A DNA stretch of 64,000 nt from Nonomuraea coxensis DSM 45129 (GTDB taxonomy: Bacteria; Actinomycetota; Actinomycetes; Streptosporangiales; Streptosporangiaceae). Where the stretch lies: positions 5,374,501 through 5,438,500 of the forward strand of contig NZ_CP068985.1 in NCBI RefSeq assembly GCF_019397265.1, in the 5' to 3' direction. Of this stretch, positions 28,106 through 49,052 are shown piece after piece; position 1 is the first letter of the stretch, and every line of letters begins with the position of its first letter. The position numbers and the translations under genes were made by a program. The notes beneath the pieces were generated by a model. It saw only the letters and a list, made by a program, of their open reading frames with translations. It was not told where the DNA came from and searched no databases.

Positions 28106-28356
28106 GCGACGGCCAGGGTGGGCGAGAGCCGGGCCACCAGCTCGGCCATGGCGGTCGCGGTGCGGAAGTTGTCGATGCGCAGCTCCTCGTTGGGGATGGT
28201 GACGCCGAACGTCTTCTCCACGAACATCACCAGCTCCATCGCGAACAGCGAGTTCACGAAGCCGAGCGCGAAGATGTCCTGCGTCCCGTCGATCTCGGCC
28301 TGCGGGTACCTGTCGCGGACGAAGCCGAGGATCTGCTCCTTGACGGTGTTCGACAT
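28102..28356 (-). CDS. fkbJ: Free-standing ACP of the extender cassette (FkbJ-like)
   Basis: The 84-residue acyl carrier protein has four-helix ACP size and the attachment site LGFVNSLFAMEL, with S36 as the phosphopantetheine serine (N replaces the usual D before it, common in FkbJ-type ACPs). It would hold the glyceryl, then tartronyl (hydroxymalonyl) group while FkbH and the two dehydrogenases act, and present the finished extender unit to an acyltransferase. A strong AGAAGGAG lies ahead of ATG 28356. The gene is 20 bp from the hydroxyacyl dehydrogenase stop and overlaps the next gene. Confidence 0.92.
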   Translation of the reverse strand: MSNTVKEQILGFVRDRYPQAEIDGTQDIFALGFVNSLFAMELVMFVEKTFGVTIPNEELRIDNFRTATAMAELVARLSPTLAVA

Positions 28357-28376
28357 GCCGTACTCCTTCTGATGGG

Positions 28377-29228: not shown

Positions 29229-29275
29229 GTCCGCTCCGTTCCGCTCATTGGTGGTGGCTCCTTGTCCGGTCCTGT

Positions 29276-32200: not shown

Positions 32201-35200
32201 GAGCGCGGCGGCCACGGACGCGCCGGCCTCGCCGCGCTCGCCCAGCAGCAGGGCGGCGAGACCGGGGACGGACTCGCCGAGCAGGTCGAGGCATTCGTCG
32301 AGCGCGGCGCGGAAGGCGGGCTCGTGCCGGTGCAGGTCCGCGGCCAGGCCGGGGTACTGCTCGCCGACGCCGGCGAGCAGGAAGGCGACCGGGCGGCCCT
32401 GGACGGTGTCCACCCGCCCCATCGGCCCGGCCTCCCCGCCCAGCGCCGTGGCCGCCGCGGCGGCGCCGCCCGCGACGACGGCGCGCCGGTGCTCGAAGGT
32501 CTTGCGCCCCACCTGCAGCGTGTACGCCACGTCGGCCAGCCGGACGTCCGGCGCGTCCGCCAGATGCCGGGCGAGCCGGTCGCACGCCTGGCCGGCGGCG
32601 GCGGCCGTACGCGCGGAGACCGGCAGGACGTGGAAACGGCGCCCCTCCGCTCCTCCGGCCGCCCGCTCGGGCGGCTGCTCGACCACCATGTGGACGTTCG
32701 TGCCGCCCATGCCGAGCGAGTTCAGCCCGGCGATCCTGGGCCGCGTGCCGCGGGTGCGCCACGGCGACAGCTCGGTGTTGACGTAGAACGGGCTGTCGTC
32801 GAAGTCGATCTCCGGGTTGGGCGCGGTGAAGTGGAGGCTGGCCGGGATGACGCCCTCGCGCAGCGCGAGCGACGTCTTGATCAGGCCGCTGGCGCCCGCC
32901 GCCCGGTCGAGGTGGCCGACGTTCGTCTTGACCGAGCCGATCGGGCAGTACCCCTTGGCGCTCGTGGGGCCGAAGGCGCGGGTCAGGGCCGCCACCTCGA
33001 TGGGGTCGCCCAGCTCGGTCGCGGTGCCGTGCGCCTCGACGTAGCTGATGTCGTCCCCGGTGACGCCCGCGTCCGCCATCGCGTCGGCGATCACCCGCGC
33101 CTGGCCGACGACGCTGGGGGCGGTGTAGCCGACCTTGAGCGCGCCGTCGTTGTTCATGGCCGAGCCGCGGATCACCGCCCAGATGTGGTCGCCGTCGCGC
33201 ACCGCGTCCGGCAGCCGCTTGAGCAGCACCACGGCCGCGCCGTCGCCGAACATGCTGCCCTTCGCCGCGGCGTCGAACGTCCGTACGTGGCCGTCCGGCG
33301 ACTCCTGGCCGCCGGGCCCGTACAGGTGGCCCACCCGGTCGGGCACCCGGATGGACACGCCGCCGGCCAGGGCCAGCTCGCACTCGCCGTTGCGCAGGCT
33401 CTGCACGGCCAGGTGCGCGGCGACCAGCGAGGTCGAGCAGAACGTCTGCACGGCGACGCTCGGGCCGTGCAGGTCGAACAGGTACGACACGGTCGTGGGC
33501 AGGGCGTCCTTGTCGTTGCCCATGATGACCTCGAAGTCGCTGAACTCCTGATGCCCGCCGCCGAGCAGCCGGGCCGTCTGGCGGAGCAGGTAGGTGCTGA
33601 TGTTCGAGCCGCCGAACACGCCGACCCGGCCGCGGTGCTCCGGGGCCGCGTACCCGGCCTGCTCCAGCGCCTCCCAGCACACCTCGAGGAAGGCCCGCTG
33701 CTGCGGGTCGGTGATCGCGGCCATGCGGGGGCTCATGCCGAAGAAGGCGGCGTCGAAGCCCGCCACGTCGTCCAGCACCGGGCGGGCGGGGACGTAGGCC
33801 GGGTCGCGGAGCTGCTCGGCGGCCACGCCCGCGGCCAGCAGCTCCTCCTCGGAGAAGAAGCTGATGGACTCGGCGCCGTCGCGCAGGTTCCGCCAGAACG
33901 TCTGGACGTCGGGCGCGCCGGGGAACCGCCCGGCCATGCCGACGACGGCGATCCGCCGGTCGTCCTCGCCGGGCCCCGCGTCCGCGGGGGGCCGGGGGGT
34001 GTCCACGGCCCTCGGGGCGGGCTCCGGCCTCGGGGCGGCGGCGCGCTCGCCGATGACGGCGGCCAGCGTGTGCACGGTCGGGGCCTCGAACAGCACCACG
34101 GTCGGCACCGCCACCCCGAAGCGCTGCTTCACCAGCGCCAGCATCTGCAACGCCACCAGGGAGTTGCCGCCCAGGTCGAAGAAGTTGTCCCGGGTGCCGA
34201 CCGGCTCGACGCCGAGCACCTCCGACCACAGCCCGGCGAGGTCACGCTCGGCCTGGGTGAGCGGCGGCGCGTACGGCTGGGGCAGCTCGGGGCGGGGAAA
34301 CCGGTCGCGGGGCCCCTGCGCGACGGGCGCCGTCCGGCCCGGCAGCCGGTCCGCCAGCCCGCCGGCGGCCACGACCACGTCGGGGCGGGCGGCCGGCAGC
34401 AGCCGGTCGAAGGCCGCCAGGGCGTCCCCGGCGGTCATGGCGTGCGCGGCCATCGCCGCGCCGAGGCCGCCGTCGAGGCGGTCCAGGGTGACCTGCCAGG
34501 TGTCCCAGCTCGCCGCCACCCAGCCGGGGTTGCGGTGGGCGAGCGCGGTGAGCGCGGCGTTGGCGGCGGCGTAGCTGCCGAACGTGATGCCGCCGAGCAG
34601 GGCGGAGGTGGAGGAGAACAGCACGCAGAACTCGGGCGTCTCGCCCAGCTCGGCCAGCACCCGCTCCAGGACGAGCGCCCCGGTCACCTTGGCGGCGAAG
34701 TGCCGCGCCACGGCGGGCCCGTCGAGGTCGCGGAGGGGGAGGAAGGTGGCGGGCGAGGTCTCGGCGGCCGCGTGCACGACCCCGCCGATCCGCCCTCCGC
34801 CGTCCAGGGCGCCGGCGAGGGCGTCGCGCATGGCGGCGGGGTCGGTCACGTCCACGCGCGGGGTCAGGACCTCGGCCCCGGACGCGCGCAGCCGCTGAAC
34901 CGCGCGGTGGCGGGGATCGTCCTCGTCGTCGGGGAGACCGCCGCGGCCGGTCAGGACGAGGCGATCGGCGCCCGCCCGTACCAGGTGCCCGGCGATGAGC
35001 AGGCCGACGTCGCCGAGCCCGCCCGTGATCACGTACGTGCGGCCGGGACGGATCCCGGGAGCAGGCGGGTCCTCGCCGGGCCCGGCCTCGGCGTGCTCGC
35101 GCACCAGCCGGACGCCGTCCCGGCAGGCGATGAACGTACCGCCACCGGCGCCGGGACCCCGCGCCTCGGCCGCCAGGAACCCGGCCACCTCCTCGGGGGT

Positions 35201-38200
35201 CGCGTCGGGCGCGACGTCGACGGCGGCGCAGTCGAGGGTGAGGTACTCCTGATTGGCCACCGTCGGCAGCGTCGCGGCGGCGGCCTGCCCAGGGTCCGGG
35301 ACCTCACCGGCGAGCACCGCCTGCCCGCCCCGGGTGACCAGGACGACGCGGGTCCCGTCGCCGCCCTCCTCTCCCCAGGCGTGCAGCAGCCGCGCGGCAG
35401 GGAGCACTGTGTCCCGCCCGTCGGCGTGCCCCTCGCCTTCAGAACGGGTGAGGAGGCGGAGGTCGAGCACGACGGCGGCCTCGCGCAGGTGCCGGGCCAG
35501 CGCGGCGTGGTCGGCCGCCGACTCCGGGTCGATGGTGACGCCCTCGGCCGTCGCGGCGAAGCCGGGCCCCGGCAGGACGGTGACGGCCTCCGTACCGGCG
35601 GCGCGCAGCGCGGCGGCGACCGGCTCCGCACTCGCCGCGTCCGCCGCCAGCACCACACATCCCCCGGCCACGTCCCGGATGCCGCCGGGAAGGGGCGAGA
35701 CGGCGGAGGTCGCGGGCGGAGGCGGAAGGGGAGCCGGCGTCCAGCGCGGCACCATCAGCCGCACATGCGCCCCACCGCCGGCATCCTGGGCCGCGTCAGC
35801 GCCGGACGCGGCCGCGGGGCCGGACGCGCCCAGCCCGGCAGCGCCACCAGCGACAGCACCGCCGCCCTCAGCGGCGCCACGCGCGCCTGGCCCGGCGGGG
35901 GTGTCGGTGGTGGCGGCGGCACTGGGCCCGCCTGCGGTGGAGCCGGGGGTGGGGGGGTCTATCCAGTAGCGGGCGCGTTGGAAGGGGTAGGTGGGGAGGG
36001 CGACCTTGGCGACCGGCCGGTCCTGGCGGTAGCCGGACCAGTCGATCGGGGCGCCGGCGAGCCAGAGCCGCCCGGCGGCCTCCGCCAGCACCTCCCGGGC
36101 GGCGCGCGGGTCGTCCGCCCCGGGCAGGGTGGCGACGATGAGCGGCCAGCGTTCGGGCGGGCAGGCGCGGTGGCCGCGCGCCATGGCGCCGAGCGAGCGC
36201 CCCGGCCCGATCTCCAGCAGCGCCGCCTCGCCGTCCAGCGTGAGCAGCGTCTCCAGGACGGCGTCGAACTGCACGGGCGCGCACATGTGCTCGCCCCAGT
36301 ACGCCGGATCGCCGGCCTGCTCGGCGGTGACGAGCCGGCCGGTGACGTTCGACACGTACGGCACGGAGGGCGCGCGAAGCGTGACGTTCTCCGCGATCCA
36401 CGCGGTGAGCCGGTCCCTGACGGGCTCCATCATCCGGGAGTGGAAGGCGTGCGTGGTGGCGAGCGGCCGGCACGGAACCGCGTCGGCCTCGAGGAGTTCC
36501 CTGGCGGCCCGCATGGCGTCCGGCTCGCCGGACAGGACCGTGAGGGCGGGGCCGCTGACGGCGCCCACGTCGAGGCCGGTGATCCCGGCGCGGCGGAGGC
36601 GTTCCGCGAGGTCGGCGGCGGGCAGCGGGACCGCGCTCATGGCGCCAGCGGGCAGCTCGCCGATGAGGCGGGCGCGGTGGGCGACGAGGGCGAGGGCGTC
36701 GTCCAGCGTCAGGACGCCGGACAGGGTGGCGGCCACGTACTCGCCGAGGCTGTAGCCGGCGAGCGCGGCGGGCCGGACGCCCCAGGACAGGACGAGGCTC
36801 GCCAGGGCGTACTCGACGGCGAACAGCGCGGGCTGGAGGATCTCCGTGGGGACGGCGCCGGCGGCGGGGGCGCGGCCGAGCAGGCGGCCGAGCCCGTCGC
36901 CGCCGGGGCGGGCGCGGGGGGCGAGCATCTCGGCGAGCGGGTCACGTCCGTCGTCAGGAGAGCCGCCGGAGGAGTCCGGGGAGTCGCGGAGGTGGCGGCG
37001 CAGCCCGGCGCGGCAGCGGTCGAGCGTCTCGCGGAAGACCGGCTCCGACCGGTACAGCTCCTCGGCCAGCCCCGGGTACTGCTCGCCCGTCCCGGCGACG
37101 AGGAAGGCCACGGGCCGGTCGCCGCGGCTCTCCGTACGGCTGAGCGCGGCCCCCTCGCGCAGCGCGGCGGCGGCCTCGGCGGGGGTGGCGGCGACCAGCG
37201 TCCTGCGGTGGCCGAACACCTGGCGGCCGGTCTGCAGGGTGTGGGCCACGTCGGCCAGCCGCTGCCCGCTGCCGCCGCCTTCGAGGTGGGCGGCGAGGCG
37301 GGCGGTCATCGCGTCGGCGGCCTCGGCCGTACGGGCGGACCAGACGAGCGGCTCGGGTCTGGCCGGCTCCTCGGTACGCGGCACCAGCGGCGCCTCCTCC
37401 AGCACGACGTGCGCGTTGGTGCCGCCGATGCCGAACGCGCTCACCCCCGCCCTGCGGGTCCTGCCCGCCTCGCGCGGCCAGCTCCGCAGCCGGGTGACGA
37501 CCTCCAGCGCGGCCTCGCCGGAGGCGAGCTGCGGGTTGGGCTCGGACAGGTTGAGCGTGGGCGGGATCTCGTCGTGGCAGAGGGCGAGCGCGGCCTTGAT
37601 GAGGTTGGTGACGCCGGCCGCCCTGTCGAGGTGGCCGACGTTGGTCTTGACCGAGCCGAGCAGCAGCGACTGGCCGCGGAACACCTGCTGCAACGCGGCC
37701 AGTTCGGCGGCGTCGCCGAGGGCGGTGCCGGTGCCGTGCGTCTCGACGTAGTCGATGTCGGCGGGCGTCAGGTCGGCGCTGGCCAGGGCCTCGGCCATGA
37801 CGGCGGCCTGCCCCTGCACGCCGGGGGCGGTGAAGCCGACCTTGCGCCCGGCGTCGTTGTTGACCGCCCAGCCGCGGATGACGGCGTAGATCTGGTCGCC
37901 GTCGGCGAGCGCGTCCTCCAGGCGGCGCAGCGCGACGACGCCGACGCCGCTGCCGAGCGGGCTGCCGAGCCCGCCCGCGTCGAAGGCGCGGCACTCGCCG
38001 TCCGGCGGCGCGATGCCGCCCTGCTGGTACAGGTAGCCGACGCGGTGAGGGACGTTGACGGCGACGCCGCCGGCCAGTGCCAGGTCGCACTCGAACCCGG
38101 CGAGGCTGGTGGCCGCCGCGCAGACCGCGACGAGGGAGGTGGAGCAGTAGCTCTGGACGCCGTAGCTGGGGCCGGACAGCCCGAGCGCGTGCGCGACGCG

Positions 38201-38713
38201 GGTGGTGAGCGAGTCCTTGTCGTTGGCGAGGCCGAGCGCGAGCTCGCCCATGACGGCGCCGACGCCGCTGGGCACCAGGTTGTTCTGCAGGTACGAGCTG
38301 TGGGCGCAGCCGCCGAACACGCCGATCGCCCCGTCGAACCGCTTGGGGTCGCAGCCCGCGTCCTCCAGCGCGGCCCAGCTGTGCTCCAGGAAGAGCCGGT
38401 GCTGCGGGTCGAGGATCTGCGCCTCCTTGGGGCCGAAGCCGAAGAAGGCGGCGTCGAACAGCTCGACGCCGTCGATGACGGGGGCGGCCTTGACGTACGC
38501 GGGATCGGCCAGCGTCTCCTCAGGCACCCCGGCGGCGCGCAGCTCGTCGTCACCGAAGCGGGTGATCCCGGAGCGGCCCGCCCGGACGGCCGACCAGAGC
38601 TCGGCGACGCCGGACGCGCCGGGGAAGCGGCCGGACATCCCGACGATCGCGATGTCGCTGCCGGGGCCTTCGATGTCGTCGTTCACGTCTACCGTTCTCA
38701 TTTCCGGCCTCAT
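29276..38713 (-). CDS. PKS modules 5-6: KS-AT-KR-ACP-KS-AT-KR-ACP
   Basis: The 3145-residue bimodular protein. Module 5: KS with C190 (SYCSTSL), H326 and H361; AT with GYSLGEY near 655 and HAFHS near 757; KR ([12 protein letters not shown] near 1228, GSYAAAN); ACP GGNSLV near 1515. Module 6: KS from about 1584 with TFCSTSL near 1758; AT GYSLGEY near 2205 with HAFHS; KR (VYLITGGLGGIA near 2733, VDYCAAN); ACP GGNSLLG near 3059. AT motifs are malonyl-like, but hydroxymalonyl-selective ATs have no simple motif, so substrate stays open. No DH domain, so hydroxyls should remain. ATG 38713 overlaps the module 4 stop (ATGA); a longer open frame upstream is antisense-free filler of the module 4 gene in another frame. 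No N-terminal docking coil is seen. Module 5 resembles module 8 and module 6 resembles module 7. Confidence 0.92.
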   Translation of the reverse strand: MRPEMRTVDVNDDIEGPGSDIAIVGMSGRFPGASGVAELWSAVRAGRSGITRFGDDELRAAGVPEETLADPAYVKAAPVIDGVELFDAAFFGFGPKEAQILDPQHRLFLEHSWAALEDAGCDPKRFDGAIGVFGGCAHSSYLQNNLVPSGVGAVMGELALGLANDKDSLTTRVAHALGLSGPSYGVQSYCSTSLVAVCAAATSLAGFECDLALAGGVAVNVPHRVGYLYQQGGIAPPDGECRAFDAGGLGSPLGSGVGVVALRRLEDALADGDQIYAVIRGWAVNNDAGRKVGFTAPGVQGQAAVMAEALASADLTPADIDYVETHGTGTALGDAAELAALQQVFRGQSLLLGSVKTNVGHLDRAAGVTNLIKAALALCHDEIPPTLNLSEPNPQLASGEAALEVVTRLRSWPREAGRTRRAGVSAFGIGGTNAHVVLEEAPLVPRTEEPARPEPLVWSARTAEAADAMTARLAAHLEGGGSGQRLADVAHTLQTGRQVFGHRRTLVAATPAEAAAALREGAALSRTESRGDRPVAFLVAGTGEQYPGLAEELYRSEPVFRETLDRCRAGLRRHLRDSPDSSGGSPDDGRDPLAEMLAPRARPGGDGLGRLLGRAPAAGAVPTEILQPALFAVEYALASLVLSWGVRPAALAGYSLGEYVAATLSGVLTLDDALALVAHRARLIGELPAGAMSAVPLPAADLAERLRRAGITGLDVGAVSGPALTVLSGEPDAMRAARELLEADAVPCRPLATTHAFHSRMMEPVRDRLTAWIAENVTLRAPSVPYVSNVTGRLVTAEQAGDPAYWGEHMCAPVQFDAVLETLLTLDGEAALLEIGPGRSLGAMARGHRACPPERWPLIVATLPGADDPRAAREVLAEAAGRLWLAGAPIDWSGYRQDRPVAKVALPTYPFQRARYWIDPPTPGSTAGGPSAAATTDTPAGPGARGAAEGGGAVAGGAAGLGASGPAAASGADAAQDAGGGAHVRLMVPRWTPAPLPPPPATSAVSPLPGGIRDVAGGCVVLAADAASAEPVAAALRAAGTEAVTVLPGPGFAATAEGVTIDPESAADHAALARHLREAAVVLDLRLLTRSEGEGHADGRDTVLPAARLLHAWGEEGGDGTRVVLVTRGGQAVLAGEVPDPGQAAAATLPTVANQEYLTLDCAAVDVAPDATPEEVAGFLAAEARGPGAGGGTFIACRDGVRLVREHAEAGPGEDPPAPGIRPGRTYVITGGLGDVGLLIAGHLVRAGADRLVLTGRGGLPDDEDDPRHRAVQRLRASGAEVLTPRVDVTDPAAMRDALAGALDGGGRIGGVVHAAAETSPATFLPLRDLDGPAVARHFAAKVTGALVLERVLAELGETPEFCVLFSSTSALLGGITFGSYAAANAALTALAHRNPGWVAASWDTWQVTLDRLDGGLGAAMAAHAMTAGDALAAFDRLLPAARPDVVVAAGGLADRLPGRTAPVAQGPRDRFPRPELPQPYAPPLTQAERDLAGLWSEVLGVEPVGTRDNFFDLGGNSLVALQMLALVKQRFGVAVPTVVLFEAPTVHTLAAVIGERAAAPRPEPAPRAVDTPRPPADAGPGEDDRRIAVVGMAGRFPGAPDVQTFWRNLRDGAESISFFSEEELLAAGVAAEQLRDPAYVPARPVLDDVAGFDAAFFGMSPRMAAITDPQQRAFLEVCWEALEQAGYAAPEHRGRVGVFGGSNISTYLLRQTARLLGGGHQEFSDFEVIMGNDKDALPTTVSYLFDLHGPSVAVQTFCSTSLVAAHLAVQSLRNGECELALAGGVSIRVPDRVGHLYGPGGQESPDGHVRTFDAAAKGSMFGDGAAVVLLKRLPDAVRDGDHIWAVIRGSAMNNDGALKVGYTAPSVVGQARVIADAMADAGVTGDDISYVEAHGTATELGDPIEVAALTRAFGPTSAKGYCPIGSVKTNVGHLDRAAGASGLIKTSLALREGVIPASLHFTAPNPEIDFDDSPFYVNTELSPWRTRGTRPRIAGLNSLGMGGTNVHMVVEQPPERAAGGAEGRRFHVLPVSARTAAAAGQACDRLARHLADAPDVRLADVAYTLQVGRKTFEHRRAVVAGGAAAAATALGGEAGPMGRVDTVQGRPVAFLLAGVGEQYPGLAADLHRHEPAFRAALDECLDLLGESVPGLAALLLGERGEAGASVAAALERTEVVQPALFAVEYALARTLVSWGLRPSLMLGYSLGEYVAATLAGVLSLKDALSLVTHRARLIAGLPAGAMLAVSLPADALRRRFQLDGRGLDVAAANGPQVTVVAGPPDAVARLADDLGAAGVPCRPLETTHAFHSRMLEPLTGELTRWVEANVRLNAPALPYVSNVTGGVADAALVRDPGYWARHMCGTVRFADGVERLLADPELAVVEIGPGQSLGALVRGAGCPPERWPLIAATLPAAADARPADQVLADCLARLWLCGVTVDWDTYHGRTGEPGQDAGALPGRVPLPTYPFQRQRHWIEPPKAARTVEAEPDDLFEAITSLPKLPEEDWLHLPVWRQSAPPAPAPDGEGPWLVLTRDGLADAAAERLLATGADAVLVRPGDAYRATPEGGTVRPGHAADLRALLRDLRAAGRAPSRVLHLWTLEPGPDTVAYGLHTLVALARAAGESGITEWSLDVAVSGTQEVTGGDAVHPEAATLTGPCLVIPLEYPKVATRLIDLPAGPGPRDLDALAAELARPRADRVVALRRGRRWLPGYERLPVQEPAGAEPFRDEGVYLITGGLGGIALGLAACLARDHRARLVLLARHGLPPRDRWPALLAGTGEAESDPVRRRVAQVAELIELGAEVEIVTGDAADPGDVRRAVETALTRFGALHGVLHAAGVPGMGLMQFKRPEELDQVLAPKVAGTLALAEALRVGEPGEIELDFLVLFSSITSATGGGPGQVDYCAANAFLDAYAAKLAATGRRVVAVDWGEWTWNAWEAGLDGYDEALRAFFKDNRARIGIGFPDGWRALRRALATGEPRVVVSTQDFATLVRGSSMFTLEAVTAPAAAGASGTPHPRPELLTAYQEPSGPAEEAVAAIWRESLRLDRVGAADNFFELGGNSLLGVTIVAAVRAAFELDELPPHILYEAPTVTALSRTVEALRAGTAPAFADADGGSQVRAQLRRSGLEASAARRRGRQPQESTP

Positions 38714-41700
38714 TTGCGGTTGCTGGAACGGGCCCGGCGCCGCCGCTGCCCCCGTGCCGAACTGGTGGTGAGCGCGTCCGCCTGGTCCGCGCCGCCGTGC
38801 AGGGCCGCCGCGAACTCGGCCACGGTCGGATGCTCGAACAGCAGCGCGGGCGCGACCGGGCGGCCGAGCTGCTTCTCCAGGGCGAGCACCATGGCCATGC
38901 CGAGCAGGGAGTTGCCGCCGAGGTCGAAGAACGGGTCGTGCACGCCCACCTCGTCGATGCCGAGGTAGGCGCCCCACAGGTCGGCGAGCTCGGTCTCGGC
39001 GCCGGTGCGGGGGGCGGCGTAGTCGGTGCGGAGCTGCGGGCGGGGGAAGCGGCGGCCCTGCGGGACGACGGCGGCTCCGACGAGGTCGTCCAGGTCGAGC
39101 ATGGCCGACCAGGCGCGCAGCACCTCGCGCAGCGGCTGGCGTACGGCCATGACACTGCCGTGCCCGGCGGCGGCGAGGCGGTCGAGCAGCGCGCAGCCGG
39201 CGTCGTCGGGGAAGCCGTAGCGGGCGCGGTAGCCGGCCACCCGGTCGGCCAGGCCGCCGCCGGTCGCCTTGAGCCCTTCGGACTGCCAGACGTCGTGCCG
39301 CCACGGGCCCCAGGCGACGGACACGACGCGGGTGGACGGGGCCGCGGCGGCCAGGGCCTGGCCGTAGGCGTCGAGCAGGGTGTTGGCCGCGCAGTAGTCG
39401 GCCTCGCCGACGCCGCCGTACGCGGTGACGGCCGAGGAGTAGAGGACCAGCAGCTCGGGGCGGTCGGCGGGCAGGGTGGCCGGGCCGGCCAGCTCGGCGA
39501 GGGGGCCCATGGCGAGCACCTTGGGGGCGAGCACGCGGCGGGCCTCGGCCGGGGTGCGGCGGCGGAGCATCCCGCCGGCCGGGAGGCCGGCGGCGTGGAC
39601 GACGCCGGTGAGGCGGCCGAAGTGCTCGCGGGCGCGGCGCAGGGCCGCGCGCAGCTCGTCCGGCACGCCGGCGTCGGCGGCGAGCAGCAGCACCTCGACG
39701 CCGGCCGCCGCCAGCTCGGCCACGTCGCGCCGGGTCCGCGCGGTGGTCTCGTCGTCCGCGGCGGCGTCCTGCGGGAGGGGGGTGCGGGCGAGGAGGGCGA
39801 GACGGCGGACGCCCGCGCGGGCCAGGTGCCGGGCCAGGGCCATGCCGAGGCCGCGGGTGCCGCCGGTGATCAGGTACGCGCCGTCGGGACGCCACACGGG
39901 CGCCGCGGGCTGTTGCACGGGGAGCTCGGTCCAGGCGCGTTCCCAGCGGCGGCCACGACGCCAGCCGGACAGCGGGTCGGGCGCGTCGGGGTTGACGGCG
40001 TCCTCCTGCGGGGGGCGAGTCAGCTCCCAGGCGAGCTGGGCGGCGGCGGACGCAGCGGCGGCGGGCGTGACAGCGGCGGCGAGGTCGGTTTCCGGGTCCA
40101 AATCGACGCCGGTCCAGGTGAGGGCGGCGTACTCGTGGCGGGCGGCGCGGCCGAGGCCGTGCGCCAGCGCCTGATGGGGGGCGGGGACGTCGCCGCCGAG
40201 GATCTCCGTCGCGCCGCGGCTGACGGTCAGCAGCCGGGCGGGGCGGTCCCCGAGGGCCTGGACGGCGAGCATGAGGCTGTCGAAGCCGTGGCCGACGGCC
40301 TGCCGTAAGTCGTCGTCGCCGGCAGGCAGCGCGGCCGGGGCGGCCAGGCTCCACAGGTGGGCGACGTGCACCGGGCCGGGCGGCAGCGCGGCGAACACCT
40401 CCGCGTAGTGGCCGGGCACGGCCGGGTCGACGGCCAGGCGGCGGCCCTCGCGCGCCGGCTCAGGCACCGCCGCCGCCCTCACTTCGACGACGGGGGTGCC
40501 GGAGGCGGCGGCGAGGTCGGCGAGCGCGGACCCGACCCCCGCGGGGTCGGCGAAGACGACGAGCGGCCCCGGCAGGGCGAGGGCCGCGGGCGGCGTGCCC
40601 CCGCAGGTGGGATCCCGCCGCCACACAGGCACGAACGCGAAGTCCCCCGGCTCGGCCTCCTCCGCCCCGGCGTCCCCCGGCTCGGTGTCCCCCGCACGGG
40701 CGGCGGCGGGCTCGGCGACCACGGGCTCGGCGCGTGCCGGCCGGGCCGAGGGCTGGGGGGAGGTGGGCCCCGTCGGGGCGGCGGAAGGGTGGGGGGTCAG
40801 GGGCGGGGTGAAGAGGGCCGGGTCGGGATCTGGCCAGAAGCGGGTGCGTTGGAAGGGGTAGGTCGGCAGGGTGAGGACGCGCCCGCCCGCCGGCCGGGTG
40901 CGCTCCCAGACGACGTCGGCCCCCAGCTCCCAGAGGGCGGCGCAGGTGGCGAGCAGGCCGGCGCGGTCCTCGCGGGCCCGCGCCCCCGCCGTCCAGTACG
41001 GCGCCAGCGTCCCGAGGACGGCGGCCGGTTCGCCGCCCGCCAGGTTCTGGCGGACCAGCCCGCCCAGGGTCTGCCCCGGCCCCAGCTCGACGAACGCGGT
41101 CACGTCCTGGTCCAGGCAGTACCGGACGCCGTCGGCGAACCGGACCGTGCTGACGAGCTGGTCGGCCCAGTACGACGTACTGGTGGCCTGTTCGGCGGTG
41201 AGCGGCCGCCCGGTGAGGTTGGAGACGACGGTGACGGCGGGCGGGTTCCGCCGGACGGTCTCCAGCACGGCGGCCAGCTTCTCCCTGGCCGGTTGCAGCA
41301 GCGAGGAGTGGAAGGCGTGCGCGGAGCGCAGCGGCCGGCAGGCGACGCCGTCCGCCGTGAGCAGGGCGGTCGCGGCCTCGATCTCGGCGGGCAGCCCGCT
41401 CAGCACGGTCATGGCGGGGCCGTTGAGCGCGGCGACGTCCACCTCGACGCCGGCCGCGGCGAGGGCGGCGCGGATGCGCTCCTCGGGCGCGGCGGCGGCG
41501 ACCATGCGGCCGGCGGGGACCGCGCCGATGAGGTGGGCGCGCTCGATGACGACGTGCAGGGCGTCCTCCAGGCTGAAGACGCCGGCCAGGGTGGCGGCGA
41601 CGTACTCGCCGAGGCTGTAGCCGATGAGCAGGTCGGGGGCGACGCCCCAGTGGCGGAGGAGGCGGGCCAGGGCGTACTCGGCGGTGAAGAGGAAGGGGTG

Positions 41701-43617
41701 GGCCACGGCGGCGTGGCTCAGCGGGTCGTCGCCGGGGTCCGGTCCGGCGGGGGCCCGGCCGAGGAGGGCGGCGAGGTCACCGGAGGAGCCGGCCGGGGCG
41801 GCGGTGGGGGCGAAGCAGGGGCGCAGGTCCACGCCGGTGCGCTGACGTACGAGGTCGGCGCAGTGGTCGACGGCCTCGGCGTAGACGGGTTCCGTGGCGT
41901 ACAGCTCGGCGCCGAGGCCCGCGTACTGGTCGCCGACGCCGGGGAGCAGGAACGCGACGCGGGGCGTGCCCTTGACGTGGTGCCCGCCGCCCTCCCCTGC
42001 GAGCGCGCGCAGCCGCCGTACGGCGTCGCCGGTGCCGGCGCAGATCAGGGCGCGGCGGTGGTCGAGCTCGGCGCGGCCGGTCTGGAGGGTGTGCGCGAGG
42101 TCGCCGGGCGCGGTGCCCGGGTGCGCGTCCAGCCAGTCGGCGAGCCGCCCGGCCTGCTCGCGCAGCGCGGCGGGCGCGGCGGCCGACACCGGCAGCACGT
42201 ACGGCCCCGCGACCGTGGCCGCATCGGCCGGGGCGGCGGGTGGGACGGCGGACTGGAGGACGAGGTGGGCGTTGGTGCCGGACAGGCCGAAGGAGCTGAC
42301 CCCGGCGAAGGCGACGCCGTCCAGCGGCGTGGCGGCCGTGACGGGCCGTACGGTGCCGTCCTCGGGGATGGCGGCGGCCGGCGTGGACAGGTTGAGGCTG
42401 GGCGGGATGAGCCCGTTCTCCAGGATGAGGATGGTCTTGATGACGCCCGCGACCCCGGCGGCGGCCTGGGTGTGCCCGATGTTGGTCTTGACCGCGCCCA
42501 CCCGCAGGGGATGCTCGGCGGGCCGGCCGCCGAAGACGTCGTGCAGGGCGGACAGTTCGATGGCGTCCCCGAGGTGGGTGCCGGAGCCGTGCGCCTCGAC
42601 GTACCCGATCTCGTCCGGGGAGACGCGGGCCGCGGCGAGGGCGCGGGTGATGACGTCGTTCTGGGCGCGCCGGCTGGGCGCGGTCAGGCCGTTGCTGCGG
42701 CCGTCCTGGTTGACGGCGGAGCCGCGCAGCACGGCCCGGACGCGGCGGCCGTTGGCCAGCGCCCTGGACAGCGGCTCCAGCACGAGCAGGCCGCCGCCCT
42801 CCCCCATGACGTAGCCGTCGGCCTGCTCGTCGAACGTCTTGCACCGCCCATCGGCGCACATCATCAGCCCCGCGCACGCCTGCTGGAACGTGGTGGGGTG
42901 CAGGGTGAGCGACGCCCCGCCGGCGAGGGCGAGGTCGCACTCACCCCGGCGCAGGCTCTCGGCGGCGAGGTGGATCGCGATCAGGGACGAGGAGCAGGCC
43001 GTGTCGACCGTGACGGTGGGGCCGGTCAGGTCGAGCTGGTAGGCGATGCGGCCGGCGGCGACGCTGGGGATGGCGCCCTGGCCGAGGTAGGGGTCGGAGA
43101 CGGCGTGCGGGCCCTGGTGCTCCATCTGGAGGCGGCCGTACTGGAGGGTGTCCATGAAGCCGACCATGACGCCGGTACGGCTGCCCGCCACCCGGCCCGG
43201 CGACAGCCCGGCGCTCTCCAGGCCCTCCCAGGCCAGCTCCAGCAGGAGGCGCTGGTGCGGGTCCATGCGCAGCGCCTCGCGGGGCGACAGGCCGAAGAAG
43301 GCGGCGTCCCAGCCGGTGACGTCGTCCAGGAAGGCCCCGTACCGGGTGTAGATACCGCCGGGCACGCCGGGCCGCGGGTCGTAGTAGGCGTCGATGTCCC
43401 ACCGCGCGGCCGGCACCTCGCGCACCGCCGTGCCGCCGCGCCGCAGCAGGTCCCAGAACTCCTCGACGGACTCGCCGCCCGGGTAGCGGCAGGCCATGCC
43501 GATGACGGCGACGGGCTCGTGGCGGCGTTCCTCCACGTCGGCGAGCCGCTGGCGGGTCTGGGCCAGTTCGACGGTCACGCGCTTGAGGTAGGAGCGGAGC
43601 TTTTCCTCGGTCCCCAT
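38710..43617 (-). CDS. PKS module 4: KS-AT-KR-ACP, chimeric style
   Basis: The 1635-residue module. The N-terminus (EEKLRSYLKRVTVELAQTRQ, residues 4-23) is a classical docking coiled coil. KS has C208 in DTACSSSL, with EAHGSGT and NIGHTQ histidines. AT: GYSLGEY near 668 and HAFHS. KR: AYLITGGTRGLG near 1248, with ADYCAAN. ACP: DLGGNSLLG near 1565. No DH or ER. The front (docking, KS) matches modules 1-3, while AT, KR and ACP match modules 5-7; the C-terminus ends in an Arg-rich tail without the EEIFALIDN docking helix. It is therefore the seam between two PKS styles. ATG 43617 preceded by GGAAAGG was chosen; a GTG at 43656 overlapping the previous stop would add 13 residues. Confidence 0.92.
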   Translation of the reverse strand: MGTEEKLRSYLKRVTVELAQTRQRLADVEERRHEPVAVIGMACRYPGGESVEEFWDLLRRGGTAVREVPAARWDIDAYYDPRPGVPGGIYTRYGAFLDDVTGWDAAFFGLSPREALRMDPHQRLLLELAWEGLESAGLSPGRVAGSRTGVMVGFMDTLQYGRLQMEHQGPHAVSDPYLGQGAIPSVAAGRIAYQLDLTGPTVTVDTACSSSLIAIHLAAESLRRGECDLALAGGASLTLHPTTFQQACAGLMMCADGRCKTFDEQADGYVMGEGGGLLVLEPLSRALANGRRVRAVLRGSAVNQDGRSNGLTAPSRRAQNDVITRALAAARVSPDEIGYVEAHGSGTHLGDAIELSALHDVFGGRPAEHPLRVGAVKTNIGHTQAAAGVAGVIKTILILENGLIPPSLNLSTPAAAIPEDGTVRPVTAATPLDGVAFAGVSSFGLSGTNAHLVLQSAVPPAAPADAATVAGPYVLPVSAAAPAALREQAGRLADWLDAHPGTAPGDLAHTLQTGRAELDHRRALICAGTGDAVRRLRALAGEGGGHHVKGTPRVAFLLPGVGDQYAGLGAELYATEPVYAEAVDHCADLVRQRTGVDLRPCFAPTAAPAGSSGDLAALLGRAPAGPDPGDDPLSHAAVAHPFLFTAEYALARLLRHWGVAPDLLIGYSLGEYVAATLAGVFSLEDALHVVIERAHLIGAVPAGRMVAAAAPEERIRAALAAAGVEVDVAALNGPAMTVLSGLPAEIEAATALLTADGVACRPLRSAHAFHSSLLQPAREKLAAVLETVRRNPPAVTVVSNLTGRPLTAEQATSTSYWADQLVSTVRFADGVRYCLDQDVTAFVELGPGQTLGGLVRQNLAGGEPAAVLGTLAPYWTAGARAREDRAGLLATCAALWELGADVVWERTRPAGGRVLTLPTYPFQRTRFWPDPDPALFTPPLTPHPSAAPTGPTSPQPSARPARAEPVVAEPAAARAGDTEPGDAGAEEAEPGDFAFVPVWRRDPTCGGTPPAALALPGPLVVFADPAGVGSALADLAAASGTPVVEVRAAAVPEPAREGRRLAVDPAVPGHYAEVFAALPPGPVHVAHLWSLAAPAALPAGDDDLRQAVGHGFDSLMLAVQALGDRPARLLTVSRGATEILGGDVPAPHQALAHGLGRAARHEYAALTWTGVDLDPETDLAAAVTPAAAASAAAQLAWELTRPPQEDAVNPDAPDPLSGWRRGRRWERAWTELPVQQPAAPVWRPDGAYLITGGTRGLGMALARHLARAGVRRLALLARTPLPQDAAADDETTARTRRDVAELAAAGVEVLLLAADAGVPDELRAALRRAREHFGRLTGVVHAAGLPAGGMLRRRTPAEARRVLAPKVLAMGPLAELAGPATLPADRPELLVLYSSAVTAYGGVGEADYCAANTLLDAYGQALAAAAPSTRVVSVAWGPWRHDVWQSEGLKATGGGLADRVAGYRARYGFPDDAGCALLDRLAAAGHGSVMAVRQPLREVLRAWSAMLDLDDLVGAAVVPQGRRFPRPQLRTDYAAPRTGAETELADLWGAYLGIDEVGVHDPFFDLGGNSLLGMAMVLALEKQLGRPVAPALLFEHPTVAEFAAALHGGADQADALTTSSARGQRRRRARSSNRK

Positions 43618-43652: not shown

Positions 43653-46600
43653 TCACAGTTCGTTGTCGATGAGGGCGAAGATCTCCTCGTCCGAGGCGGA
43701 GTCGATCTTGTCCAGCACGCCTCCGGCGGTCGCCAGGGCCGAGCCGAGCTTGACGAGCGCGTTCTGCAGGAGGGGGACGACCCGCTCGCGGATGGCGGCG
43801 GCCTCCCCGTTGGCGTGTTCGAGCACCTGGTCGAGGTGGTCGAGGGCGGCGCGGAGCCCGTCCTCCGGCGGCGCCGGCGTCCTGGGCGGGGTGTCGGGCG
43901 GGGTCAGCGTCTCCGACAGGTGCGCGGCGAGCGAGGTGACGGTGGGGTGGTCGAAGACGAGCGTGGCGGGCAGCCGCAGCCCGGTGTCGGCGTTGAGCCG
44001 GTTGCGCAGCTCGACGGCGGTGAGTGAGTCGAAGCCGAGCTCGTTGAAAGGGCGGTCCACGTCGACGCTGTCGGCGCTGACGTGCGCGAGCACGGCGGCG
44101 ACGTGGGCCTGGACGGTCTCGGTGAGCACCCGCAGCGCCTCCTTCCGCGGCAGGGCGGCCAGGCGCCCGGCGAGCCCGGCCTGGGCGGCGGCTCCGGGGG
44201 TCGCCATCTGGCGGGGCACGCGGACCAGGCCCTTGAGCAGAGGCGGCAGGTCACCGTTCGCCGCCCGCGAGCGCAGTCCGGCCGTGTTCCATCGGGCGGC
44301 GACCATGAGCGGGTCGGGGGTGGTGAGTGCGGCGTCGAAGAGGGCCAGGCCCTGGTCGGCGGTGAGCGGGGCGATGCCGGCGCGGGCCAGGCGGGCGAGG
44401 TCTGCCTGGCCGAGGGTGCCGGTCATGGCGGAGGCGGTGTCCCACAGGCCCCAGGCGACGGAGACGGCGGGCAGGCCGAGGGCGTGGCGGTGTTCGGCGA
44501 GGGCGTCGAGGAAGGCGTTCGCGGCGGCGTAGTTGCCCTGGCCCGCGTTGCCCAGCACGCCCGCCACCGAGGAGAACAGCACGAACATCGACAGCGGCCG
44601 GTCGGAGGTCAGCTCGTGCAGGTGCCAGGCGGCGTCGGCCTTGGGGGCCAGGACGGACGCGATCCGGTCGGGGGTGAGGTCCTGTACCAGGGCGTCGTCC
44701 AGGACTCCGGCGGCGTGGACGACGCCGGACAGGCCGGGGGCCGCGTCCAGGACGGCGCGCAGGGCCTCACGGTCGGCGACGTCGCAGGCGGTGACGGTGA
44801 CATGCGCGCCCAGCTTCTCCAGCTCGGCGGTCAGCTCGGCCGCGCCGGGAGCGCCGGGCCCGCTGCGGGACAGCAGGATCAGGTCCCGCACGCCGTGCCG
44901 TTCCACCAGATGCCGGGCCACCAGCGCGCCGAGACCGCCGGTGCCGCCGGTGACCAGCACCGTGCCGTGCGGAGCGCTTTCCGGCGTGGTGGGGGCGGGG
45001 TCGCGGCGGGTCAGGCGGGGCACCCAGTACCTGCCGTCGCGTACCCGGATCCACGGCTCGCCGGTGGCGGCGAGCCGGCCCCAGGCGGTGTCGCCGTCCT
45101 CGGTCTCGACCAGCGTGAACCTGCCCGGCTGTTCCGCGTGCGCCGCGCCCACCAGGCCGCGCACCGCCGCGCCGGCGGGGTCGCCCGGCCGGGTGACGAA
45201 CGCGAGGGGCCCATCGTCGGGATGGATGGCGATGGCGTCCAGGACGCGGGCGGTCAGGTCCCTGGCGGCGGCGGCCGGGTCGGGGTCGTCGCTCACGCAG
45301 GTGATCACGACGGGCTCGGGTCCCGCCGCCGGGGGGAGCGCGGTCTCCGTCCAGTCCACGCCGTACGGGACCGGCACGGCGGCCGGAGCGGCGGTGGCCC
45401 GGGTGCGCAGGGCCTCGATCGCGAGCACGGGCGCGCCGGAGCTGTCGGCGGCCTCGACCGTGGCGTCCTGCCCGGCGGCGGACAGCCGGACGCGGAGGGC
45501 GTCCGCCTGGGCCGCGTACAGCCGGACGCCGGTGAAGGCGAACGGCAGGCGCAGCTCGTCGTCGCCGCGGGCGAGCACCAGGGGGTGGAAGGCGGCGTCG
45601 AGGAGGGCCGGGTGGATGCCGAAACCGGTCACGTCGAGGCCGTCGGGCGTGGCGACCTCGGCGTACAGGTCGTCGCCCGAACGCCAGAGAGCGCGCAGGC
45701 CCTGGAAGGCGGGGCCGTACTCGTAGCCCTGCCCGGCGAGGCGGCCGTAGCCGTCGGCGAGGTCGATCAGGGTCGCGCCCGGGGGCGGCCAGGCGGCGGC
45801 CCACGCGTACGGGGCGGCGGGCGACGGGTCCTCGGCGAGGACGCCGGAGGCGTGCCGCTGCCAGGCGTCGCCATCCGCCGGGCGGGAGAAGATCTCGACC
45901 GGGCGGCGTCCGGCTTCGGGCGGGCCGACGGTGACCTGGAGGGTGACCGTGCCGCCGGACAGGTACAGCGGGGTCTCGATGACCAGCTCGTCCAGGCGGT
46001 CGCAGCCCGCGTGGGCGGCGGCTTCGAGCGCGAGGTCGGCGAAGGCGGCCCCGGGCAGCAGGACGCCGCCGCGTACGGCGTGGTCGGCCAGCCAGGGCGC
46101 CGTCCTGCGGGCGAGCCGGCCGGTGAGCACGTACCGGTCGTCGGCGGTGGAGACCACGGTGTCGAGCAGGGGATGGCGGGAGCCGTCGAGGCCCTCGCCG
46201 CGCGGGCGGCCACCGCTCGCGATCCCGTCGCCGAGCCAGAAGCGGCTGTTCTGGAAGGCGTACGTCGGAGGCTGCGTCCGCGGACGCGGCCCACCGCCCA
46301 GCACGGCCGCCCACTCCACCGGCGCGCCCTGCACCCACGCCTGAGCCAGCGACACCAGCAACCGCGCCGGACCGCCCTCACCCCGCCGCAGCGACCCGCA
46401 CACCCCCGCCGCCACACCGGCGTCCCCGCAGATCTCCCCCACATCCCCCACCAACACCGGATGCGGACTCACCTCCACGAACACCGGCCACCGCACCGAC
46501 CCCGCAGCCACCCGCACCGCCGCGTCGAACCGCACCCGCCGGCACAAGTTCTCCACCCAATACCGGCCCGACAACTCCTCCCCCGCCACCAGCCCACCCG

Positions 46601-49052
46601 TCACCGACGAACAGAACCCCACCCGGCCAGGCCCCGACCCCACCCGCTCCAGAGCCGCCTCCAGCTCCCCCTCCAAAGCACGCATGTGCGGCGTGTGCGA
46701 GGCGTAATCCACCGCGATCCGCCGCACCCGCACCCCCGCCAGCCCAGCGGTCCCGCTCGGCGCGGCGGCCCCCGCCAGAGAAGCGGTCCCGTTCGGGGAA
46801 GCGGTCCCGTTCGGGGAAGCGGCCTCGGCCAGCGCCGCCAGCTCCTCCAATGCGGCGGCGTCCCCCGCCACCACACACCCCGACGGACCCGACTCCACCG
46901 CCACCCACAACCGGCCCCCCCACCCAGAAGCCAGCAACTCCTCCGCGCGGGACGCCGGCACATCCAACGCCGCCATCCCCCCAGAACCCGCCACCCGCTC
47001 CAACGCCCGGCTCCGCACCACCACCACCCGAGCCGCGTCCTCCAACGACAACGCCCCCGCCACACACGCCGCCGCGATCTCCCCCTGCGACTGACCCACC
47101 ACCACCTGCGGCACCACCCCAGCCGCAGCCCACACCTCCGCCAACGACACCATCACCGCCCACAACACCGGCTGCACCACCGCCGAACCCACCAACTCCG
47201 GCGCCCCCGCCTCACCACGCAACACCCCACCCGCCGACCACCCCGTCAACGGCACCAGCACCCGATCACACCGCTCCAACGCCGCCGCGAACACCGCACA
47301 CGACCCCGCCAGCTCGACCGCCATCCCCGCCCACTGCGACCCCTGACCCGGAAACACCAGCACGGCGCTCCCCACCCCCGGCGCGACGCCGCTGATCACG
47401 CAGGCGTGCGCCCGCCCCTCGGCGACCGCGTCCAGAGCGGCCAGCAGCTCCTCCCGACCGGCGGCGACCACCACCGCGCGATGCGGGAACCGCGCCCGGC
47501 GGGCCAGCGCACGCCCGGCCCCGGCCAGTTCCTCCTCCGCCACCGACGCCGCGTACTCGCGCAACCGCGCCGCCTGCGCCCGCAACGCCGGCCCGCTCCT
47601 GCCCGACACCACCCACACCAGCACCGGCCCGTCCGAGACCAGCGGCTCCCCCACAACCGCCTCGACCTCGACCTCCGGAGCGCTCTCCACGATCACGTGC
47701 GCGTTCGTGCCACTCACCCCGAAACTCGACACCCCCGCACGCGCCCGCCCCGCCAGCTCCACAGACTCGGTCAGCAACCGCACCCCACCCGCCGACCAGT
47801 CCACATGCGGCGTCGGCTCCGTGACGTGCAACGTCCTCGGCAGCACACCGTGCCGCAACGCCATCACCATCTTGATCACACCCGCCACCCCGGCAGCCGC
47901 CTGCGTATGCCCGAGGTTCGACTTGACCGAGCCCAGCCACAGCGGCCGGTCGGCGGGACGTCCGCGCCCATAGGTGGCGAGCAGGGCCTGGGCCTCGATG
48001 GGGTCGCCGAGGGTGGTGCCGGTGCCGTGCGCCTCGACCACGTCGACGTCGCGGGTGTCGAGGAGGGCGTCGGCCAGCGCCTGCCGGATCACGCGCTCCT
48101 GGGCGGGGCCGCTGGGCGCGGTCATGCCGTTGCTGGCCCCGTCCTGGTTGACGGCCGTGCCGCGCACGACGGCGAGGATGCGCCGGTTGTTGCGGCGCGC
48201 GTCGGACAGGCGTTCCAGGACGAGCACGCCGACGCCTTCTGCCCACGCGGCCCCGTCGGCCGAGGCCGAGAACGACTTGCACCGTCCGTCCGGTGCGAGG
48301 GCGCGCTGCCGGGAGAACTCCACGAACGGCACCGGCGACGACATGACCGTCACGCCCCCGGCCAGCGCGAGCGGGCACTCGCCGCGCCGCAGCGCCTGCA
48401 CGGCGAGGTGCAGCGCGACCAGCGACGACGAGCACGCCGTGTCCACCGTCAGCGACGGCCCTTCCAGGCCGAGCGTGTACGAGACGCGCCCGGACATCAC
48501 GCTGGGCGCGCTGGAGGTGAACAGGGTGCCCTCGACGGACTCGGGCGCGCCGGCGAGGAAGCGGGTGGAGTAGTAGTCGTACATGTTGCCCGCGTAGACG
48601 CCGGTGCGGCTGCCCCGGAGCGTGCCCGGCTCGATCTCGGCCCGTTCCAGGGCCTCCCAGCAGGTCTGCAGGAACAGCCGGTGCTGCGGGTCGGTGGCGA
48701 GGGCGTTGCGCGGGCTGACGCCGAAGAAGGCCGCGTCGAAGTCGGCCGCGTCGTGGAGGAAGCCGCCGTGCCGGGTGTACGACTTGCCGGCCGCCCCGGG
48801 GTCCGGGTCGTAGAGGTCCTCGACGTCCCAGCCCCGGTCCTCCGGGAACTCGCCGATGGCGTCCACGCCGGCGGTGACCAGCTCCCACAGGTCCTCCGGC
48901 GAGCCCACGCCGCCGGGGAAGCGGCAGGCCATGCCGACGATCGCCACCGGCTCGTGCCGGCGGCCCTCCTCCTCGGCCAGGCGCCGCCGGGTCTCCGACA
49001 GCTCCACCGTGGCCCGCCTGAGGTAGTCGCGCAGCTTGTCCTCGGTACGCAT
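43653..49052 (-). CDS. PKS module 3: KS-AT(methylmalonyl)-DH-KR-ACP
   Basis: The 1799-residue module. N-terminal docking coil ([20 protein letters not shown]). [10 protein letters not shown] near 207. AT: GQSQGEI near 654 and YASH near 780, the methylmalonyl signature. [16 protein letters not shown] near 990 (HxxxGxxxxP intact) and [21 protein letters not shown] near 1369 with the LDD motif (VLDDALV) of B-type reductases. [14 protein letters not shown] near 1674. C-terminal docking helix [15 protein letters not shown]. It should add a methyl-branched alpha,beta-unsaturated unit. The AT carries an extra stretch of about 28 residues with an 18-bp repeat. Parts of its KS, AT and KR are nearly identical to neighbours (see repeat entries). 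The stop overlaps a possible GTG start of the next gene. Confidence 0.94.
44292..44955 (-). repeat. Duplicated KR segment, module 3 copy (pair of 55079-55750)
   Basis: About 660 bp covering most of the KR domain (TGGTGGLG to the end of the reductase) is nearly identical to 55079-55750 in module 1, with only scattered substitutions, including at silent positions. This indicates recent duplication or gene conversion. Confidence 0.85.
46255..47935 (-). repeat. Duplicated AT cassette, module 3 copy (pair of 57195-58787)
   Basis: Two blocks (about 46255-47360 and 47540-47935) are almost base-identical to 57195-58222 and 58395-58787 in module 1, including third codon positions. They cover the KS C-terminal end, the KS-AT linker and nearly the whole AT. 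Between the blocks (AT N-terminal linker) the two copies differ. Codon use in the blocks (many TTG, GGG, GTT, TCT codons in the coding sense) is unlike the flanking DH and KS. Confidence 0.85.
46738..46826 (-). repeat. Repeat-driven insertion inside the module 3 AT
   Basis: Two exact tandem copies of GAAGCGGTCCCGTTCGGG (46780-46797, 46798-46815) and partial third and degenerate copies code for repeated S-P-N-G-T-A residues (about 744-772). The otherwise near-identical module 1 AT has only about five residues (GSAVFDG) at this place. The insertion lies just before the [12 protein letters not shown] segment; function may be kept, as it falls in a surface loop. Confidence 0.85.
47960..48535 (-). 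repeat. Duplicated KS segment, module 3 copy (pair of 53302-53875)
   Basis: The KS core around the active-site cysteine and the EAHGTGT histidine is almost identical at base level to module 2 (53302-53875), whereas module 1 differs here. Module 3 is therefore a mosaic: module 2-like KS with module 1-like AT and KR. Confidence 0.8.

Follow-up and report, generated by a model that had tools for sequence, protein, structure and literature searches.

Where a modular polyketide synthase (PKS) can be cut and rejoined is an open engineering question, and attempts have been made with joints at either end of the ketosynthase (KS) and in its middle, according to the consulted part of PMC10661043. A stretch of 64,000 nucleotides from Nonomuraea coxensis DSM 45129 (contig NZ_CP068985.1, positions 5,374,501 to 5,438,500; hereafter, the window), taken from a genome that consists of a single contig of 9.07 Mb, poses the same question in natural form. 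Three parts of its PKS gene cluster can be differentiated: (i) a front line of macrolide type, formed by a loading module and modules 1 to 3; (ii) module 4 (M4), a protein of its own with a docking coil, a KS, an acyltransferase (AT), a ketoreductase (KR) and an acyl carrier protein (ACP); and (iii) a back line formed by modules 5 to 8. A preliminary description, made from the sequence, had proposed that M4 is a natural chimera whose coil and KS belong with modules 1-3 and whose AT, KR and ACP belong with modules 5-7, joined after the KS, and that it passes a chain from a macrolide-type line to one of the type associated with nonribosomal peptide synthetases (NRPS). The question is, then, what was joined in M4, and at which points.

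The reading to which a probability of about 0.72 is given is that M4 is the entry, or converter, module of a contiguous-polyol line that uses hydroxymalonyl-ACP. In this module, the class of the KS would follow the donor ACP and its chain, the class of the AT, KR and ACP would follow the extender unit, and the joint between the KS and the back-type domains would be old. This reading combines computed domain histories, joints, conservation and neighbouring genes with a deduction of the substrates, the docking contacts and the product. M4 is indeed a chimera at the level of domains, and this mosaic is older and more widespread than first proposed.

All the motifs named in the preliminary description are present in M4, i.e., DTACSSS at residue 205, GYSLGEY at 666, ADYCAAN at 1406 and GGNSLLG at 1567. 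Directly before the KS, a PF08990 docking domain is detected (E 9.8e-9), which is also above cut-off in M2 and M3; it corresponds to the class-1 (four-helix-bundle) coils, as these are described in the part of PMC9113145 consulted, and is 69% identical to the coil of M2 and 67% to that of M3. The AT of M4 (AT4) is 47-49% identical to AT5-7 versus 32-36% to the ATs of the loading module and M1-3, and its ACP (ACP4) is 38-45% identical to ACP5-8 versus 24-28% to ACP1-3. The identity of the KR (KR4) is uninformative alone (35-45% to all KRs); its ADYCAAN motif fits the VDYCAAN of M6 and M7, while M5 and M8 read YAAAN. The KS of M4 (KS4) shows 51-52% identity to KS1-3, 51% to the loading KS (KSQ) and 38-42% to KS5-8. 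Since it is equally distant from KSQ and falls far below the 69-86% that KS1-3 share among themselves, KS4 looks like a third kind of KS rather than a fourth member of that group. Against four orthologs, the dN/dS values (KS 0.18-0.35; AT 0.25-0.38; KR 0.23-0.38; ACP 0.30-0.61) fit purifying selection on all four domains, in which the motifs sought are all retained. In NCBIfam and PDB searches no specific family was named for M4 or KS4.

KS4 orthologs with at least 77% identity occur in the genus (15 of 54 genomes) and in the order (28 of 345 genomes), the window included. The next relatives in the order are G193 at 64%, G187 and G188 at 61%, and G213 at 59% (G and L numbers are our own handles), followed by a background of up to 57%. 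In the class, six of 394 genomes pass E 1e-126 with KS4, one of which (G558) belongs to another family; in that family 9 of 297 genomes pass E 1e-130, at 57-66% identity and with G558 included. Among the 396 genomes of a phylum sample, the window alone passes E 1e-130. The KS4 clade also has members in Streptomycetaceae, at two Amycolatopsis loci and at one Herpetosiphon locus. Altogether, 38 M4-type modules were compared, and their order, where readable, is the same: an ordinary ACP, KS4, an AT of GYS type or an eroded one, a KR and an ACP of the GG type.

What precedes KS4 does vary: (i) a docking coil in 29 of the 38 modules (the window, 21 orthologs, G193, G723, G712, G727, G797, G713 and G814); (ii) a macrolide-type ACP, to which the module is fused in frame, in four (L112 and L125, from Amycolatopsis decaplanina and A. 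azurea, respectively, plus G702 and G837); (iii) a starter ACP beside a gene resembling those of fatty acyl-AMP ligases (FAAL) in another four (G187, G188, G558 and G213); and (iv) a short N-terminus of another kind in the remaining one (Herpetosiphon, L056). The FAAL-like genes were searched by tblastn with the G187 protein at E 1e-15 in 39 cluster DNAs, that is, those of the 38 M4-type modules plus G398b for comparison. They were found in the four clusters just named (with weaker second matches in G187 and G188) and, at 39%, in G398b; this single query detected none in the fetched DNA of the coil and fused forms. For three of the four FAAL-like proteins, which were checked, fatty acyl-AMP ligase models come first among the specific NCBIfam matches, with scores under the curated cut-offs. 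The same three carry, above cut-off, the C-terminal domain PF23024, which we take to be the domain that marks FAALs. In all four fused forms the active-serine motif of the AT has been lost (GRGTGE, GHGVGE, GRGTGR), and hence their extender should come from elsewhere.

The preliminary description had called for phylogenies domain by domain. The KS tree (maximum likelihood) comprises 70 of 124 first-pass rows, namely 14 of 25 M4-type, 13 of 20 front, 3 of 6 KSQ and 15 of 36 back KSs plus references from cyanobacteria, myxobacteria, Chloroflexota, actinomycetes and others; the reference KSs had been reduced beforehand from 229 to 35, and 14 rows were dropped for being long, odd or near-duplicates. 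Of the 70 rows kept, 57 are in the AT tree, from which the degenerate M4-type ATs of G837, L112, G702 and G193 were excluded by choice; the KR tree holds 57 rows, and the ACP tree 55 rows over 83 columns, for which its deep split is usable and its inner order is not. FastTree trees served as a first look only. In the KS tree, all 14 M4-type rows form one clade (support 99/97). The front KSs constitute a separate clade with the M4-type KSs outside it (100/100), and the back KSs split off together with the NRPS-type references (100/100). In the AT tree, on the other hand, M4-type and back ATs share one clade with the GG references outside it (99/97), and the deep splits of the KR tree (96/92) and the ACP tree (100/100) place M4 on the back/GG side. 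The expected match of AT, KR and ACP with the back modules is thus borne out, in the case of the KR by the tree and by the motif of M6 and M7, although not by that of M5; for KS4, the expected grouping with modules 1-3 fails.

Most of the approximately unbiased (AU) tests agree with these trees. A grouping of KS4 with the front KSs is rejected, both for the window KS4 with three orthologs (p 3.2e-57) and for the whole KS4 clade (p 0.014), and neither the tree nor the test places KS4 inside the back (CSTS/NRPS-type) group. Forcing on the KS data the grouping of the AT tree (M4 with back, GG references apart) is rejected with p 2.3e-50, and forcing on the AT data the grouping of the KS tree (back with GG references, M4 apart) with p 1.5e-11. 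As each data set rejects the grouping of the other, the histories of KS4 and AT4 are in conflict. The TACSSS motif, by which the preliminary description had tied KS4 to KS1-3, was discarded as a marker of descent: KSs with CSSS also stand on the GG side of the KS tree (L179, G398b_p4676). In L178 and L180 a CSSS motif in the KS goes together with a GG-type ACP.

The position of the joint was sought with column-wise log ratios between CSSS-type (42 rows) and GG-type (29 rows) sequences along the KS, the linker and the AT of 21 M4-type modules (row L107_p4672 was omitted). For the window, the switch from CSSS-like to GG-like scores 377, compared with a maximum of 265 in 300 shuffles, and its best position is residue 553, just before the AT. 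All 21 modules score above the highest of their 300 shuffles; in G558 the best switch lies inside the AT, and in the other 20 it is located in the KS-AT linker or at most three residues away. KS4 itself reaches a log ratio of +278 versus +407 to +487 in three front controls. The joint after the KS, as first proposed, stands as a joint between domains; as the joint between the two lines it does not, for the latter is placed at the edge of coil and KS.

Several observations weigh against the reading of M4 as an old mosaic at the entry of a hydroxymalonyl line. A grouping of KS4 with all GG-side KSs costs 7.7 log units and is not rejected (p 0.351), and KS4 may stand next to the GG side in the KS phylogeny and not within the macrolide side; for this reason, no claim is made that KS4 descends from the macrolide side. 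AT4 is weakly GG-like, with a log ratio of -91 versus -206 to -299 in three back controls. M4-type ATs as a single clade are rejected (p 9e-4), the AT4 of Herpetosiphon is the sister of its own next AT (100/97), the KR4 and ACP4 of M4-type modules each fail to form one clade, and the GG reference G398b stands on the front side of the KR tree. Moreover, the groups for the AU tests were chosen after the trees had been seen, near-copies inflate the counts, and the GG reference modules in the trees are only five. As for the chemistry, the product of the cluster is a prediction from its genes. In the part of PMC4207774 consulted, two ATs that take ACP-tethered extenders are described, ZmaA-AT (hydroxymalonyl-ACP) with GYSFG and ZmaF (aminomalonyl-ACP) with GYSLG, and since ZmaF carries it, GYSLG is no proof of hydroxymalonyl.

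The first of these points would suit the rival explanation that survives best, namely that M4 is no chimera and was inherited as one unit, KS4 having belonged to the GG lineage from early on and retained TACSSS in its ancestral form. It is also favoured by the fact that KS4 is followed by a GG-type ACP in 35 of 35 readable cases (the own ACP is Gx in 187/187 CSSS-side and GG in 107/111 GG-side modules). Nevertheless, a single inheritance is hard to bring together with an AT4 that groups with the back ATs to the exclusion of the GG references, a grouping that the KS data reject, and with a residue scan that changes sides in all 21 M4-type modules scanned. All things considered, this explanation is improbable.

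With regard to the order of events, the joint between KS and AT predates the union with modules 1-3, because the same combination of KS clade, GYS-type AT and GG-type ACP is found with other feeders, also in Herpetosiphon. Judging from these comparisons, the joint between the front and back lines lies N-terminal of the KS, at the coil/KS edge, and is the younger one. In the KS tree the sampled coil, fused and FAAL forms each make up one clade, and the coil and fused forms are sisters (98/92), so that feeding by macrolide-type modules looks like one origin beside feeding by FAAL. Downstream of KS4 in G193 and G213, KR and ACP cluster with their counterparts from module 5 (KR 100/98; ACP 99/83). 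These groupings, that of Herpetosiphon and the rejected M4-type AT clade suggest that what follows the KS was replaced on several occasions, with KS4 remaining in its place. A broader proposal can be given even chances: a dedicated family of converter modules, i.e., one KS clade at the switch from an ordinary line or FAAL starter to hydroxymalonyl, which was re-plugged N-terminally and whose joint below the KS was re-made more than once (G193, G213, Herpetosiphon). In the G213 cluster (L148, L130, L131) the front is FAAL-primed, with a KS4 and an AT4 like those of G558, and the KR4, the ACP4, the later KSs and the supply genes closely resemble those of the coil type; the cluster looks like one of coil type in which a different front has taken the place of the original.

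If the class of a KS follows its donor, it should agree with the ACP upstream. Each KS was assigned to a class according to which KS of the window it matched best, after dropping loci L048-L052 and L089 as genome duplicates. The upstream ACP is of the ordinary Gx type in 148/148 readable pairs for CSSS-side KSs, of the GG type in 77/77 for GG-side KSs and of the Gx type in 26/26 for M4-type KSs, which amounts to agreement in 251 of 251 pairs; since many rows are near relatives, these pairs are not independent events. A further 187 KSs have no readable upstream ACP, the FAAL forms among them; the starter ACPs of G187, G558 and G213 are not of the GG type. This pattern fits the published view, reported in the consulted part of PMC10661043, of KSs as gatekeepers that coevolve with upstream domains, and M4 is a place where that view and the classical definition of a module diverge.

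The same agreement, along with the reported gatekeeping, could be taken to mean that KS types arise by selection and not by recombination, through convergence on the incoming chain; KS5-8 and the NRPS-type KSs would then have residues in common because they take chains with an alpha-heteroatom. Convergence would be expected at a few pocket residues; the CSSS-like signal is instead spread over KS and linker, with a positive log ratio in 12 of 13 bins of 40 residues (residues 35-554), and this alternative is accordingly regarded as quite unlikely. The origin implied at first, with KS4 taken from the module 1-3 lineage and joined within this cluster to a module of the 5-8 lineage, could appeal to the shared TACSSS and coil type, to the greater nearness of KS4 to KS1-3 than to KS5-8 and to the linker switch, but is very improbable given the rejected front grouping, the equal nearness to KSQ and the recurrence of the same combination in FAAL forms whose fetched DNA shows no front line of this sort.

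As to the extender unit, the window contains together the set of genes for hydroxymalonyl-ACP, i.e., an FkbH-like protein, a 3-hydroxyacyl-CoA dehydrogenase, an ACP and an acyl-CoA dehydrogenase. FkbH-like and acyl-CoA dehydrogenase genes occur in 32 of the 39 cluster DNAs; the seven DNAs without both are five short contigs or short fetches, plus Herpetosiphon and G398b. GYS at the active serine of the AT is found in 31/32 readable M4-type and 22/24 back modules versus 0/20 front modules, which have GHS or GQS (in two front ATs the motif pattern picked GWSAG, upstream of the true GQSQG). The butyrolactol-like order of domains, the supply genes and the GYS-type ATs suggest that M4 would be the first hydroxymalonyl module. 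The preliminary placement of M4 between a macrolide-type line and one of another type holds, and the second line would be better described as a hydroxymalonyl-ACP contiguous-polyol line than as NRPS-associated.

The proposed sequence of events in M4 is as follows. The docking coil would bind the C-terminal tail of module 3, with which it should pair to judge from a tail, DEEIFA(L/F)ID, that is conserved upstream of coil-type M4 modules. From an ordinary (Gx-type) ACP, KS4 would take over a chain that lacks an alpha-hydroxyl, and AT4, of the type that takes ACP-tethered extenders, would load hydroxymalonyl. By way of KR4 and the GG-type ACP4, a chain that is now alpha-hydroxylated would then reach modules 5-8 with their CSTS-type KSs. 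The younger joint, the one with modules 1-3, would be situated at the N-terminal border of the KS; in relatives this place is occupied by a coil, by a macrolide-type ACP in fusion or by a starter ACP loaded by FAAL. For the product of the cluster, a short polyene tail is predicted, along with as many as five hydroxymalonyl units.

The features of M4 and its neighbours are collected in Table 1.

Table 1. Coordinates in the window of module 4, its domains and the other genes of the cluster (DH, dehydratase).
Feature	Position	Strand	Remark
Module 4 gene, docking-KS-AT-KR-ACP, 1635 aa	38710..43617	-	
Class-1 N-terminal docking coil, residues 1-33	43519..43617	-	
KS4, residues 35-455	42253..43515	-	catalytic motifs present; own clade
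KS-AT linker	41956..42252	-	interval of the affinity switch; best switch at residue 553
AT4 (GYSLGEY / HAFH)	41053..41955	-	groups with AT5-7
KR4	39298..39882	-	
ACP4 (GGNSLLG)	38800..38991	-	
Arginine-rich C-terminal tail	38713..38787	-	kind also found behind M4-type ACPs in fused and two FAAL forms
Loading module (KSQ-AT-ACP) and module 1 (KS-AT-DH-KR-ACP)	54385..62859	-	
Module 2 (KS-AT-DH-KR-ACP)	49071..54395	-	AT of malonyl type
Module 3 (KS-AT-DH-KR-ACP)	43653..49052	-	15-letter C-terminal tail, predicted partner of the M4 coil
Modules 5 and 6, one bimodular protein	29276..38713	-	CSTS-type KS, GYSLGEY AT, GGNSL ACP
Module 7	14559..19316	+	
Module 8, KS-KR-ACP	19313..23296	+	no AT detected
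3-Hydroxyacyl-CoA dehydrogenase of the hydroxymalonyl-ACP set	28377..29240	-	start not fixed
Free-standing ACP	28102..28407	-	
Acyl-CoA dehydrogenase of the hydroxymalonyl-ACP set	26963..28105	-	
FkbH-like protein	25881..26966	-	TIGR01686, 302.8 bits versus a cut-off of 146.65
Thioesterase	25096..25890	-	

A phosphopantetheinyl transferase gene and a second acyl-CoA dehydrogenase gene also lie between the two groups of PKS genes. Regarding the DH domains, our own profile missed some of them (e.g., that of module 1, which Pfam detects). Modules 1 and 3 are 98% identical in AT and 99% in KR (57265-58221 and 55228-55755 in module 1; 46323-47360 and 44439-44966 in module 3; minus strand), which may be a sign of recent gene conversion or duplication within the cluster. 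In module 8 a stretch of VGQGQA repeats occupies the place of the AT; last modules without an AT are also seen in relatives and in the order published for butyrolactol, as far as the consulted part of that source goes. A discrete acyltransferase (PF00698; L001:15316-17028, minus strand), some 15 kb to the right of the window, could supply the AT-less module 8 in trans. Free-standing proteins with condensation and adenylation domains are encoded, divergently from the PKS genes, from window position 63102 onward and at L001:719-4521 (plus strand); related clusters also have a similar condensation-domain gene, at 58-79% in five of them and at 38-41% in three. Finally, arginine-rich tails follow the ACPs of M4, M6 and M7, and the N-termini of the next KSs are short and mostly acidic; tail and N-terminus (window 38620-38787, minus strand) may form a docking pair that differs in kind from the class-1 coil.

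For PKS engineering, the M4-type family provides natural answers: a KS fixed at the switch, an old joint after the KS and three devices at its front edge. With this family, the claim that the KS type follows the donor becomes directly testable. The converter family, if real, would show by which natural rules assembly lines of different kinds can be coupled. Besides, contiguous-polyol pathways are indicated in many Streptosporangiaceae. Mosaic modules, KS coevolution and butyrolactol-type lines are of known kinds; in literature searches judged mostly by titles and the openings of abstracts, neither a description of this module or of such a KS clade nor a name for a converter clade with changing feeders was found.

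Among known systems, the ATs of zwittermicin synthesis resemble AT4 in having GYS instead of GHS at the active serine (AT4, ZmaA-AT and ZmaF), and differ from it in the second motif, which is HAFH in AT4, GAAH in ZmaA-AT and GPFH in ZmaF, as given in the consulted part of the source. Among the PDB matches of AT4, ZmaA (4qbu) stands fifth, the best being another PKS (8xjy). FAAL-ACP-KS starter modules have their counterpart in G187, G188, G558 and G213, which put the KS4 clade directly behind an ACP near a FAAL-like gene. A cluster with hydroxymalonyl-ACP genes is described from Herpetosiphon aurantiacus in the part of PMC3368417 consulted; in the Herpetosiphon DNA of L056 neither of the two supply genes searched (FkbH-like, acyl-CoA dehydrogenase) was found.

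The closest comparison is with butyrolactol, again on the basis of the consulted parts of the sources. Hydroxymalonyl-ACP is the source of its carbons C-1 to C-8, and homologues of the four zwittermicin supply genes are present in its cluster (PMC5355916). The PKS of Streptomyces sp. TP-A0882 (ORFs 10-16 to 10-18; PMC5932044, Table 2) consists of a macrolide-type module fused to KS/KR/ACP, then a bimodular protein with KS/AT/KR/ACP twice, and then a module without AT (PMC5932044). Compared by published domain orders, the two systems are alike in their hydroxymalonyl-ACP genes downstream, and the fused forms G702 and G837 show the same order as butyrolactol. The window has the elements of such a back line: an entry module, a bimodular protein, a last module without AT and the hydroxymalonyl genes. 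The window differs in that (i) its entry module forms a protein of its own, which has a docking coil and whose AT shows GYSLGEY and HAFH; (ii) it has an extra back module, M7; and (iii) its front consists of a KSQ loader and three DH-KR modules.

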